A stretch of DNA of 17,280 nt from an uncultured Candidatus Saccharibacteria bacterium (GTDB lineage: Bacteria; Patescibacteriota; Saccharimonadia; Saccharimonadales; Saccharimonadaceae), in contig CANAUU010000009.1 of assembly GCA_947364965.1 (NCBI GenBank), positions 1 through 17,280 of the forward strand, written 5' to 3'. Positions 4,435-7,681 of the stretch are shown in pieces. The translations under genes and the position numbers were made by a program. Within the stretch, counting starts at the first letter, position 1. Every line of letters begins with the position of its first letter. Under the pieces are notes generated by a model. That model was not told where the DNA came from. It ran no database searches and saw nothing but the letters and a program-made list of their open reading frames with translations.

Positions 4435-5670
4435 ATGGATGAAATTTCACGCTACGCAGTAGGTCTTGACATCGGCACGAGCACGGTTCGGGCGGTGGTA
4501 GCGAGCGTGATGAAAGACGGTCGCCTCAATGTGATTGGTTCGGCGGAGGTGCCGAATAGTGGGATGCGGCGGGGGGCGGTGGTGAACTTGGCGGGACCGG
4601 CGCAGGCGATTGATCGAGTTTTGGGGGAAGTTGAACGGATGGGGGGATATGAGATTAATGCGGCGACGATTTCGATTAATGGGTCGCAGATTTTGTCAAC
4701 ACGAACAGAGGGGAAGATTGCGGCGGTGACGGCGAATCATGAGATTAATCAGGACGATTTGGCGCGGTTGACGTCGGTGGCGCTGGAGGGGGAAATCCCG
4801 GCGAATCAGGAAATTTTGGATGTGGTGCCGCTGCAGTATGTTCTGGATGGTCAGGCGGGGATTAAGGACCCGCTAGGGATGGTGGCGCTGAAAATTGAGA
4901 TGCAGGCGAATGTGGTTTCGACGTTGGTTTCGACTTACGATAATTTGCGGAAGGCGTCGGAGTCGGCGAATGTGACGCCGGAGCGGGTGGTGCCGAGCGT
5001 GGTAGCTTCAGCGCGAGCGGTTTTGACCGAGAGGCAGATGGAGAACGGGGTAGCGGTGGTGGATATTGGTTCATCGACGACTGGGGTGGCGATTTATGAA
5101 GAAAGTGATTTGCAGTATGTCGGCGTGGTGCCGGTCGGTTCGAATAATATTACGAATGACCTGGCGGTGATGCTGGCGATTGACACAGAGGTGGCTGAGG
5201 AGATTAAACGGCGGTTTGCGACGGGGAGCTTTGGCGAGAACGAGGAACCGGTGGTGATTCGTTGGCGGGGGAAGGATTTGCATTTTGAGCGAGATCAGAT
5301 TGATGAAGTAGTACAGGCGCGGCTGGATGAGATTTTGGAGCTGGTTCATAAGGAATTGAAGCGGGCGCGATATGAGCAGCGGTTGCCGGAGGGAGTGGTT
5401 TTGACTGGGGGCGGCGCGCGAATGCGAGATATTGATAAGTTTGTGCGAATGACGCTGGGAATGTCGGTGAAAATCGGTGCGCCGACGGGATTGTCTGGGC
5501 TAGTGGAGAAGATTCAGAAGCCGGAGTTCGCGGCGGCGGTGGGGTTGATGTTGACGTCGGCGGAAAATGAGGGGCGAGCAGCGGTGCCGAAGAAGGCGCA
5601 TAAGAAGTCTGCGAAGAAATCGGGTGAAAAAGGCTCAGGGTTTTTGAAAAAGTTTTTTGGCAAGTTTTAA
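4435..5670 (+). CDS. ftsA: Cell division protein FtsA
   Basis: A 411-aa actin-fold protein that tethers FtsZ filaments to the membrane. The phosphate-1 motif is VGLDIGTST (about 9-17), the phosphate-2 motif is VVDIGSSTTGVAI (about 209-221), and the adenosine motif is GVVLTGGGARM (about 322-332). The SHS2/1C region lies between the first two. The last residues, after a lysine-rich linker (KKAHKKSAKKSGEKG), form a short amphipathic helix, FLKKFFGKF, the usual FtsA membrane anchor. The predicted transcript begins at or next to the ATG and no Shine-Dalgarno is present, so translation is probably leaderless from the 4423 promoter. ftsZ follows after 164 bp with its own -10. Confidence 0.93.
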   Translation: MDEISRYAVGLDIGTSTVRAVVASVMKDGRLNVIGSAEVPNSGMRRGAVVNLAGPAQAIDRVLGEVERMGGYEINAATISINGSQILSTRTEGKIAAVTANHEINQDDLARLTSVALEGEIPANQEILDVVPLQYVLDGQAGIKDPLGMVALKIEMQANVVSTLVSTYDNLRKASESANVTPERVVPSVVASARAVLTERQMENGVAVVDIGSSTTGVAIYEESDLQYVGVVPVGSNNITNDLAVMLAIDTEVAEEIKRRFATGSFGENEEPVVIRWRGKDLHFERDQIDEVVQARLDEILELVHKELKRARYEQRLPEGVVLTGGGARMRDIDKFVRMTLGMSVKIGAPTGLSGLVEKIQKPEFAAAVGLMLTSAENEGRAAVPKKAHKKSAKKSGEKGSGFLKKFFGKF

Positions 5671-5808: not shown

Positions 5809-5834
5809 GAAAGAAGATATAAGTGGAGAAAAAT

Positions 5835-7226
5835 ATGCCTGAGATTAAGCCAACAGAGGTAGAAAGTTCAGCAAGCATTAAGGTTGTCGGTGTAGGTGGC
5901 GCGGGCGGTTCAGCGGTGGACCGAATGAAAGAAATCGGTCTGTCCGGGGTGGAATTTGTGGCGGTGAATACGGATGCGCAAGCCCTGCATCATTCTTCGG
6001 CAGATGTGAAGGTACATATTGGTAAGGGTTTGGGCGCAGGTGGTGATCCAGAAAAAGGTCGTGAAGCGGCAGAAAATGGTCGCGAAGCGATTGGAAAGTC
6101 GCTTGAGGGCGCGGACATGGTGTTTATTACGCTGGGGGCTGGCGGCGGGACGGGTTCTGGAGCTGGTCCAATCGTAGCGGAAGAATCGAAGGGTCGTGAT
6201 ATTTTGACCGTGGGCGTAGCGACAAAGCCGTTCACTTTTGAAGGCGCGAAACGCCGCGAGAATGCAGAGAAGGCGATCGACGCCCTTTCGCAGCGGGTAG
6301 ACGCTCTGATTACGATCCCGAATGACCGACTTTTGCAGACGATTGACCCGCGGACGCCGCTGACGGAAACCTTTAAGATTGCGGATGACGTCTTGCGTCA
6401 GGGGGTGCAGGGAATTTCTGAATTGATTACCGAGCACTCTTTGATTAATCTCGACTTTGCGGATGTGAAGGCGATTATGAAGAACGCAGGGTCGGCTTTG
6501 ATGGGAATTGGTCGTGCTTCGGGCGACAATCGGGCAACTTTGGCAGCGCAGCAGGCGATTGAGTCGCCACTGATTGAGGTGAAGATTGACGGGGCGCGTG
6601 GCGTGCTGTTTTCGGTCGCTGGCGGCTACGATATGGCAATGAGCGAGATTCAGGAAGCAGCTGAGATTATTACTGGAGCAGTGTCGCCGGATGCGAATAT
6701 TATCTTTGGGGCTTCGATTCGTCCAGAGCTTGAGGATGAGATGGTAGTGACGGTGGTAGCGACGGGTTTTGATTCGGAATACTATCGTAAACTCGATATG
6801 GAGCGGGCTAGCATGGAGCCGGTGAGTAGTATGAGCACGGCGACGGTGGGAAGTCTGGCTTCTTCGATGGATACGGAAGACCGAGGCGTTGAATATCGTC
6901 CCGTGAATCGAGTAAGTAATTTTGGCAGTTCGTCCTATAATAATGCCTCTTCGGATATGGGCGGGCGGATTGAGACGGTTCGGGATGAACGTGCGCCGAT
7001 GGCGACGTCGACCTCAGAATCGCGCTTTGGGGCTTCTTCGGATTCACGGTTTAACGCTTCTGATTCAAGGTTTGGTGCGGAGCCAGCGAAAGATACGGGT
7101 GCAACAGATTTTACGGCGGAAAATCGCTCGAATATGTGGGATTCGATTCATAATAATGATCAGGAAGATGATTTGGATGTGCCACCAACTTTGCGTGATC
7201 GCTTGCGCGGTAAGAATCGGGAGTAG
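5835..7226 (+). CDS. ftsZ: Cell division tubulin homologue FtsZ
   Basis: About 463 aa. Nucleotide-binding motifs: GVGGAGG (about 19-25), the tubulin signature GAGGGTGSGAGP (101-112, with S in place of the usual T in GGGTGTG), and the T-loop/synergy region with TIPNDRLL. The core ends near residue 320; a long serine-rich disordered linker follows, and the chain closes with DLDVPPTLRDRL, a good match to the conserved C-terminal peptide that binds FtsA. It polymerises with GTP to form the division ring. ATG 5835 is preferred because GGAG lies 6 bases upstream; GTG 5823 would use that Shine-Dalgarno as coding sequence. Codon use is more balanced than in neighbours, as expected for high expression. 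nrdR begins 2 bases after the stop. Confidence 0.97.
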   Translation: MPEIKPTEVESSASIKVVGVGGAGGSAVDRMKEIGLSGVEFVAVNTDAQALHHSSADVKVHIGKGLGAGGDPEKGREAAENGREAIGKSLEGADMVFITLGAGGGTGSGAGPIVAEESKGRDILTVGVATKPFTFEGAKRRENAEKAIDALSQRVDALITIPNDRLLQTIDPRTPLTETFKIADDVLRQGVQGISELITEHSLINLDFADVKAIMKNAGSALMGIGRASGDNRATLAAQQAIESPLIEVKIDGARGVLFSVAGGYDMAMSEIQEAAEIITGAVSPDANIIFGASIRPELEDEMVVTVVATGFDSEYYRKLDMERASMEPVSSMSTATVGSLASSMDTEDRGVEYRPVNRVSNFGSSSYNNASSDMGGRIETVRDERAPMATSTSESRFGASSDSRFNASDSRFGAEPAKDTGATDFTAENRSNMWDSIHNNDQEDDLDVPPTLRDRLRGKNRE

Positions 7227-7228
7227 GG

Positions 7229-7681
7229 ATGGCGACTTTGCCGAAAATCGGCGATAGTAAAGTTTTGGAGAGCCGTGAGGCGGACGATGGGACGACAATT
7301 CGGCGACGGCGAGTGAGCCCGGATGGACACCGGTTTACGACTTATGAGCGGATTGAGTTGCCGCAGTTGATTGTGGTGAAGCGGAGTGGCAATCGGGAGA
7401 TTTTTGATCGAGATAAATTAATTACGTCAGTGAAGCGGAGTGTGGGGAAGTTTTTGGACTCCGAACTGGAGATTGAAGGCGTGGTCGATCAGGTGGTGGA
7501 GCTACTTCGGGCGGAGAATGATGAGCAAGTGACTTCGCAGCAGATTGGTGATGCAGTGCTGGATGTTTTGGTGGAGCGGAATGAGGTGGCATATGTGCGG
7601 TTTGCGAGCGTGTTTCTGGATTTCAAGACTTTAGCGGATTTTGAGGGGATTTTGAAGCAACGAAGAAGTGCAAAGAAATGA
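7229..7681 (+). CDS. nrdR: NrdR-like ATP-cone regulator lacking its zinc ribbon cysteines
   Basis: A 150-aa protein with the NrdR layout. The N-terminal part keeps VLESREADDGTTIRRRR and RFTTYERIE, which are hallmarks of NrdR, and residues about 46-140 form the ATP-cone (VVKRSGNREIFDRDKL to the FLDFKTLADFEGIL end). Normal NrdR starts MxCPxC and carries RRRREC-xx-CG, forming a Cys4 zinc ribbon that contacts DNA. Here those positions read MATLPK and RRRRVSPDGHRF, and the whole protein has no cysteine. NrdR represses ribonucleotide reductase genes in response to ATP/dATP. The start at 7229 sits 2 bases after ftsZ, with GGGAGTAGGG overlapping the ftsZ stop, so the two are translationally coupled. 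DNA binding, if kept, must use a zinc-free fold. Confidence 0.85.
   Translation: MATLPKIGDSKVLESREADDGTTIRRRRVSPDGHRFTTYERIELPQLIVVKRSGNREIFDRDKLITSVKRSVGKFLDSELEIEGVVDQVVELLRAENDEQVTSQQIGDAVLDVLVERNEVAYVRFASVFLDFKTLADFEGILKQRRSAKK

Follow-up and report, generated by a model that had tools for sequence, protein, structure and literature searches.

A Probable Zinc-Free Variant of the NrdR Repressor in One Family of Saccharibacteria

1. Introduction

According to PMC9110341 and PMC12176259, most bacteria use NrdR to repress RNR, and the protein binds DNA through a zinc ribbon. These papers also name D15 and R17 of E. coli NrdR as the residues that read the DNA sequence, and give the arginines of the RRRR motif a role both at the DNA backbone and at the dimer interface. 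For the four NrdRs studied in PMC12051234, the best box spacing is 15–17 bp. A search of the literature on the zinc-ribbon cysteines of NrdR yielded only a general review and nothing on a form without them, and no report of a Cys-less NrdR was found in the literature on NrdR in Saccharibacteria or Patescibacteria. The cysteines are reportedly needed in NrdR. Elsewhere, zinc-free ribosomal paralogues are known as a response to zinc limitation.

The window analysed here is a 17,280-nucleotide stretch of DNA from an uncultured Candidatus Saccharibacteria bacterium (contig CANAUU010000009.1), whose genome assembly comprises 892,853 bases and is 93.7% complete. An initial annotation of the window had described an NrdR homologue without the four zinc cysteines and had offered two alternatives: a fold that has become independent of zinc, or another role, perhaps tied to division through the coupling of the gene to ftsZ.

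2. The Cys-Less NrdR and Its Locus

The translated nrdR product of the window (Table 1) contains no cysteine, a trait that it shares with most of its listed relatives. The RRRR and RFTTYER motifs and the ATP-cone, all called intact in the initial annotation, are present, the latter with 61.2 bits in the PF03477 profile (cut-off 25.8). The zinc-ribbon profile PF22811 (Zn_ribbon_NrdR) is also matched above its cut-off (39.3 versus 27.2 bits), in a match that starts only at position 10 of the 42 profile positions. The score of 118 bits in the NrdR equivalog profile TIGR00244 of NCBI is below the cut-off of 124.65, and automatic annotation may therefore miss the Cys-less repressor.

Table 1. Positions of nrdR, its sequence elements and the neighbouring cell-division genes in the window.
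Feature	Position	Strand	Basis
nrdR, Cys-less orthologue, 150 aa	7229..7681	+	ORF, Pfam and TIGR00244 profiles, alignment
Former first zinc knuckle, residues 1–8, MATLPKIG	7229..7252	+	alignment, ribbon counts
E14-S15-R16, counterpart of E. coli D15/R17	7268..7276	+	invariant in 54 aligned sequences; role from literature
RRRR, residues 25–28, DNA backbone/dimer-interface arginines	7301..7312	+	invariant in alignment; role from literature
S-P-D-G turn, residues 30–33, in place of the second CxxC	7316..7327	+	D-G in 203 of 210 distinct Cys-less ribbons
RFTTYER, residues 35–41, third ribbon strand; R35 DNA contact, E40 dimer contact	7331..7351	+	alignment to E. coli residues
ATP-cone domain, residues 48–133	7370..7627	+	PF03477
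ftsZ	5823..7226	+	name inferred from sequence; stop codon 2 nt 5' of nrdR start
ftsA-like gene, same cluster, upstream	4435..5670	+	ORF; name inferred; adjoins ftsZ in relatives

In frame, nrdR can be extended in the 5' direction by only five codons (E-S-G-V-G), none of them for Cys, before a stop is reached, and the DNA beyond this stop is the 3' end of ftsZ. A frameshift or upstream exon that hides the cysteines, which the initial annotation had kept in mind, was rejected on this basis. The second, normal NrdR that it had also considered was not found in the window genome with either PF22811 or TIGR00244; at the given completeness, such a gene could be missing from the assembly. Across 60 genomes of the genus, PF22811 is matched once in 57 and not at all in three; a second NrdR in the genus was rejected because no genome has two matches. 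The matches of the genus start at profile positions 7–10, like the Cys-less form. One genome of the genus (G289) contains a second TIGR00244 match.

A divergent second NrdR-like protein is common in the order, in Cys-less and four-Cys genomes alike (L242–L249; for example, L246:697–1101 on the minus strand and L248:609–1127 on the plus strand). It combines a degenerate ATP-cone with a W-RRR motif, and ribbon cysteines are present in the eight copies that were fetched.

3. Distribution of the Cys-Less Form

In a set of 121 proteins, consisting of the query and the 120 relatives listed among 7,964 matches and including one truncated protein (P0102), 102 contain no Cys at all. No CxxC motif was found in the first 45 residues of any member of this set; the only Cys in this region is a single one at residue 2 of P0096, and the C..C pair of P0090 is located outside it.

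The NrdR type of whole genomes was assigned from the start of the profile match. In a family sample of 121 genomes, 89 were assigned to the Cys-less and 26 to the four-Cys type, and the assignment was confirmed by sequence in 97 of the 97 family genomes checked. The remaining six have no match (G192, G239, G272), weak matches only (G206, G242) or a split gene (G215). In an order sample of 197 genomes, the listed strong matches from other families begin at position 1 or 2 of the profile, with a truncated gene in G340 as the exception; the listed matches extend to an E-value of about 3e-40, which leaves G413 (2.3e-39) outside them, along with nine genomes whose matches are all weak. Two genomes of this sample have no NrdR match. 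In a phylum sample of 192 genomes, those of the matches better than 1e-20 whose start lies beyond position 3 are confined to one Saccharibacteria family. Within the genomes sampled up to the level of the phylum, the Cys-less NrdR is seen in this one family only, and the loss of the cysteines is a trait of the whole clade that is not local to the window genome.

4. Replacement of the Zinc Ligands

From the 121 proteins and the fetched loci, including other lineages of the phylum, 267 distinct ribbons were parsed; 17 off-motif sequences (fragments, paralogues and other four-Cys forms) were left out. All four zinc cysteines are present in 57 ribbons and absent from 210, with no intermediate, and no Cys pair was found in the 210 Cys-less ribbons. 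The place of Cys6 is hydrophobic (P, F, Y, L, I or V) in 201 of them and corresponds to P5 in the window protein. Two residues further on, Ile or Leu is found in 210/210, and I7 is nearly invariant in the clade. The second CxxC is replaced by a D-G turn in 203 ribbons, and no conserved His or Cys near the first knuckle was found among the 210. The ribbons indicate that the lost zinc site has a conserved non-cysteine replacement, made up of the hydrophobic residue, the Ile and the D-G turn.

Residues E14, R16, R25–R28, R35 and E40 are invariant in an alignment of 54 sequences, three of them four-Cys. E. coli D15, R17, R26, R28 and R37 correspond to E14, R16, R25, R27 and R35 of the window protein, and the change from D to E at the first recognition residue also occurs in four-Cys Saccharibacteria. 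Compared with a 95%-identical relative (L094), the window ribbon shows no non-synonymous difference (dN 0) at a pS of 0.55. This constancy, together with the division into 210 and 57 ribbons without intermediates, argues for a Cys-less ribbon that is clade-wide and selected. Sequencing error as the source of the missing cysteines is very unlikely, because the ribbon is unchanged at the protein level in L094, 102 of the 121 proteins are Cys-free and CxxC is absent from the first 45 residues of the whole set.

AlphaFold predicts the three-stranded ribbon sheet to be kept without the zinc ligands, although it may return a known fold regardless of the real stability of a domain. The strands span residues 11–17, 23–29 and 35–41 in the Cys-less protein (mean pLDDT 90.0) and 11–18, 24–31 and 37–43 in a four-Cys relative (mean pLDDT 88.4); the first ten residues of the Cys-less model reach a mean pLDDT of only 71. 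The top 13 Foldseek rows and the top five VIA rows are NrdR chains. Superpositions on PDB structures span the whole protein and have a high rmsd, which probably reflects a swing of the two domains.

5. NrdR Boxes at nrd Genes

The window genome contains nrdD, followed by nrdG, on contig C27; nrdDG is the only RNR found, and a search for a PF02867 RNR in this genome was negative. Upstream of nrdD, at L174:1155–1203, lies the box pair ACCCCATATCTAGTGT-17 bp-ACGCTATATATAGCGT, with a p value at the floor of the Markov shuffles (0.005). Scoring was based on a sequence that we take to be the NrdR box consensus, and linkers of 14–18 bp were allowed. ACCCCATATCTAGTGT is placed between TTGACA, with which it has the last base of the hexamer in common, and TAAAAT, both hexamers being picked by eye, and ACGCTATATATAGCGT starts 72 bp 5' of the nrdD ATG. 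The pair overlaps the likely promoter of nrdDG.

The box scan took in 75 of the 76 gathered nrd loci (L261 gave no nrd ORF), which are a part of all nrd matches and were picked regardless of boxes. In genomes labelled Cys-less, a box pair with p < 0.05 precedes nrdD in 24/24 and nrdA in 30/30 cases; these 54 genes include that of G215 with its split NrdR, and a few genomes contribute both genes. The corresponding numbers for genomes labelled four-Cys are 7/7 and 2/2, with only a weak NrdR match in G338, and the letters of the best boxes are similar in the two groups (54 versus 9). Scores of 36 or more were obtained in 46 of the 54 Cys-less nrdD/nrdA windows versus 0 of 174 control windows at ribosomal-protein loci, six of which reached p < 0.05 with a top score of 33. 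All six nrdD promoters scanned in the genus (G000, G157, G109, G274, G289, G301) have box pairs. Directly 5' of nrdJ, box pairs are at chance level (1/12 at p < 0.05); in loci with nrdJ after nrdR, the boxes sit before nrdR. The retained boxes show that some NrdR-type reader is at work, not that the Cys-less protein itself binds there.

Some nrdA loci (for example, L079, L082 and L252) have more than one NrdR-like box pair upstream. In G157 (L250, L251), and also in G109, G274 and G301, nrdD is seemingly split: the main match ends at position 529/530 of the profile, and positions 532–562, the glycyl-radical end, are found in an ORF of their own of about 150–190 aa. Both parts of nrdD in G157 are located near NrdR-like box pairs (L250:530, L251:1143).

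6. ftsZ Linkage, RNR Types and History

The linkage of ftsZ and nrdR is also found with four-Cys NrdRs, both within the order and in other parts of the phylum, and by this shared locus the Cys-less and four-Cys proteins are orthologous. In Cys-less loci, the distance from the ftsZ stop codon to the start of nrdR is usually no more than about 30 nt. A box pair with p < 0.05 is present upstream of nrdR in 1 of 129 Cys-less versus 38 of 60 four-Cys loci across the phylum. Boxes at the nrdR/ftsZ locus of the window were rejected, as the best pair scores 31, inside the range of 28–35 of shuffled loci. Tight linkage and box loss preceded the loss of the cysteines or were independent of it, because four-Cys NrdRs with tight ftsZ linkage and no boxes also occur in the family.

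RNR ORFs of class II length (930 aa or more) are found in 16/26 four-Cys versus 0/89 Cys-less family members. The latter contain another PF02867 RNR (56) or NrdD (36), some of them both, and eight have neither. As typing examples, the short PF02867 protein of L252 is a class I alpha subunit and the long one of L253 a class II enzyme. The RNR type varies inside one Saccharibacteria family, with short and long PF02867 enzymes and NrdD; ten family genomes of known NrdR type, some of them incomplete, have no PF02867 or NRDD match.

An FtsZ tree of 96 rows (all 32 four-Cys and 64 of 128 Cys-less) places the four-Cys members L049, L050 and L052 on a long branch within the Cys-less set, which corresponds to two state changes. 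In a reduced tree of 56 rows, with ten long rows dropped and the Cys-less rows halved again, there are still two changes. A single origin of the Cys-less NrdR is nevertheless likely, because monophyly of the Cys-less rows is not rejected on the reduced tree (p-AU 0.44), although the trees need two changes.

7. Zinc Context in Saccharibacteria

Ribosomal protein L36 is without Cys in 27/27 genomes of the order, with either type of NrdR (L323–L349). In 23 of these 27 it reads SPDD, similar to the SPDG of Cys-less NrdR, at a place that is presumably CxxC in the zinc form. Ribosomal protein L31 has 0–1 Cys in the matched region of 18/18 order members versus at least four in two class-level outgroups. 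Ribosomal protein S14 (the sequence from G264 was left out) is present in a long form without CxxC in 17/17 parsed order members, and both outgroups have CxxC. The last Cys at the old S14 site is kept in 7/8 genomes with a four-Cys NrdR, and the site is Asp in 9/9 parsed genomes with a Cys-less NrdR (L390–L409). Ribosomal protein L33, a fragment at a contig end in the window genome, has 0–1 Cys in 17/17 parsed order members; it shows no shift, because the outgroups G094 and G049 also have one and none, respectively.

Zinc-free forms of ribosomal proteins are common in bacteria, and the ribosomal pattern is therefore only a hint of zinc thrift. Zinc is probably not wholly avoided, because the NrdD of the window genome retains three cysteines (CPAC and one more) at what we take to be the class III zinc site. 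In the class III RNR of the genus (L174, L250), an Asp is found at the position that we assume to be the first zinc cysteine, near DPVCGFSG...CPAC.

8. Proposed Mechanism and Alternative Explanations

The Cys-less protein is quite probably an NrdR that works without zinc and continues to repress nrd genes. It lacks the zinc ligands expected of an NrdR and would best be filed as a zinc-free variant of it. Its presumed function at the boxes has good support from sequence, and we infer metal-free folding, DNA binding, nucleotide switching and read-through from ftsZ. In the proposed mechanism, a vertically inherited NrdR would have had its zinc ribbon turned into a metal-free mini-domain, in which the three-stranded sheet is held by a hydrophobic N-terminal plug (P, F, Y, L, I or V at Cys6, followed by Ile) together with a hairpin turn that mostly reads (S/T)-x-D-G. 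Paired ribbons would present E14, R16, R25–R28 and R35 to the NrdR boxes, and the ATP-cone would still sense ATP and dATP. At high dATP, a tetramer could occupy a box pair with a spacing of about three helical turns at the nrdDG or nrdAB promoter and repress RNR, while with ATP, NrdR would form a non-binding oligomer. The gene itself would be read through from ftsZ, without autoregulation.

It is unlikely that the Cys-less ribbon has lost its box binding and that the protein senses ATP/dATP in some other role, perhaps connected to FtsZ and division. The tight coupling of Cys-less nrdR genes to ftsZ and the rarity of boxes before them speak for such a role, but the DNA-contact residues are invariant, boxes are found at all 54 nrdD and nrdA genes scanned in Cys-less-labelled genomes, and four-Cys NrdRs are commonly linked to ftsZ as well, some of them equally tightly and without boxes. 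On the last two grounds, the division role suggested in the initial annotation is not sustained. The zinc-independent fold, its other alternative, is supported by the conserved non-Cys pattern, the predicted fold, the retained DNA-contact residues and the boxes at nrd promoters.

That the boxes are read by a Cys-containing NrdR-like paralogue, with the Cys-less protein as an accessory or anti-repressor, appears highly improbable. Many genomes of the order have a divergent second match, with ribbon cysteines in the eight fetched copies; against this stand the single PF22811 match in nearly all genomes of the genus, with the start positions of the Cys-less form, and the box pairs kept at all six genus nrdD promoters. 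A ribbon that still binds metal through non-cysteine ligands is quite improbable: 203 of the 210 ribbons have the turn Asp, which speaks for such a ligand, but the place of Cys6 is mostly hydrophobic, Ile or Leu always follows at the second position after it, and the first knuckle has no conserved His or Cys. An artefact of frameshift, mis-assembly or a wrong start codon has a virtually negligible probability, given the Cys-free codons up to the upstream stop and the equal lack of the cysteines in the homologues listed and in the Cys-less family genomes with fetched sequences.

A zinc-free repressor of this kind may be part of a broader trend, for which we see somewhat less than an even chance. 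Saccharibacteria would have shed structural zinc stepwise, beginning with ribosomal proteins L36, L33, L31 and S14 whatever the type of NrdR, and continuing in one family with NrdR. The exchange of CxxC for S-P-D-G (compare S-P-D-D in L36) would then be a metal-free replacement of a zinc knuckle that can be used more than once and keeps box recognition and nucleotide-driven oligomerisation. The Cys-less NrdR also points to low zinc use as a trait that Saccharibacteria may have. A naturally occurring NrdR that lacks zinc ligands across a whole clade separates the needs of the fold and of DNA contact from the contribution of zinc, and the Cys-less NrdRs provide ready sequences for testing this contribution.

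9. Comparison with Known Systems

The Cys-less form has the same two-domain order and the ATP-cone of known NrdRs (TIGR00244; E. coli and S. coelicolor; PDB 9fvr, 9fxk and 7p37). In common with the E. coli and S. coelicolor proteins, it has the RRRR and RFTTYE-type motifs, the predicted ribbon sheet and the box pair at an nrd promoter, but the plug and the D-G turn take the place of the four zinc ligands. It also differs from known NrdRs in its score under the TIGR00244 cut-off and in the lack of a box pair before nrdR.

The four-Cys NrdRs of Saccharibacteria (for example, L171–L173, L035 and L044) have the same contact residues and, in many cases, a locus that follows ftsZ; one of them, L173, shares 40–49% identity with the Cys-less forms in its alignment. 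Unlike the Cys-less form, they contain both CxxC pairs, and in their nrdJ-bearing members nrdR adjoins the class II-type nrdJ, often with boxes before nrdR. The zinc-free ribosomal proteins L36, L33, L31 and S14 show the same change, the absence of structural-zinc cysteines. Whereas these are components of the ribosome, the Cys-less NrdR is a DNA-binding repressor and apparently the only copy in the genus.
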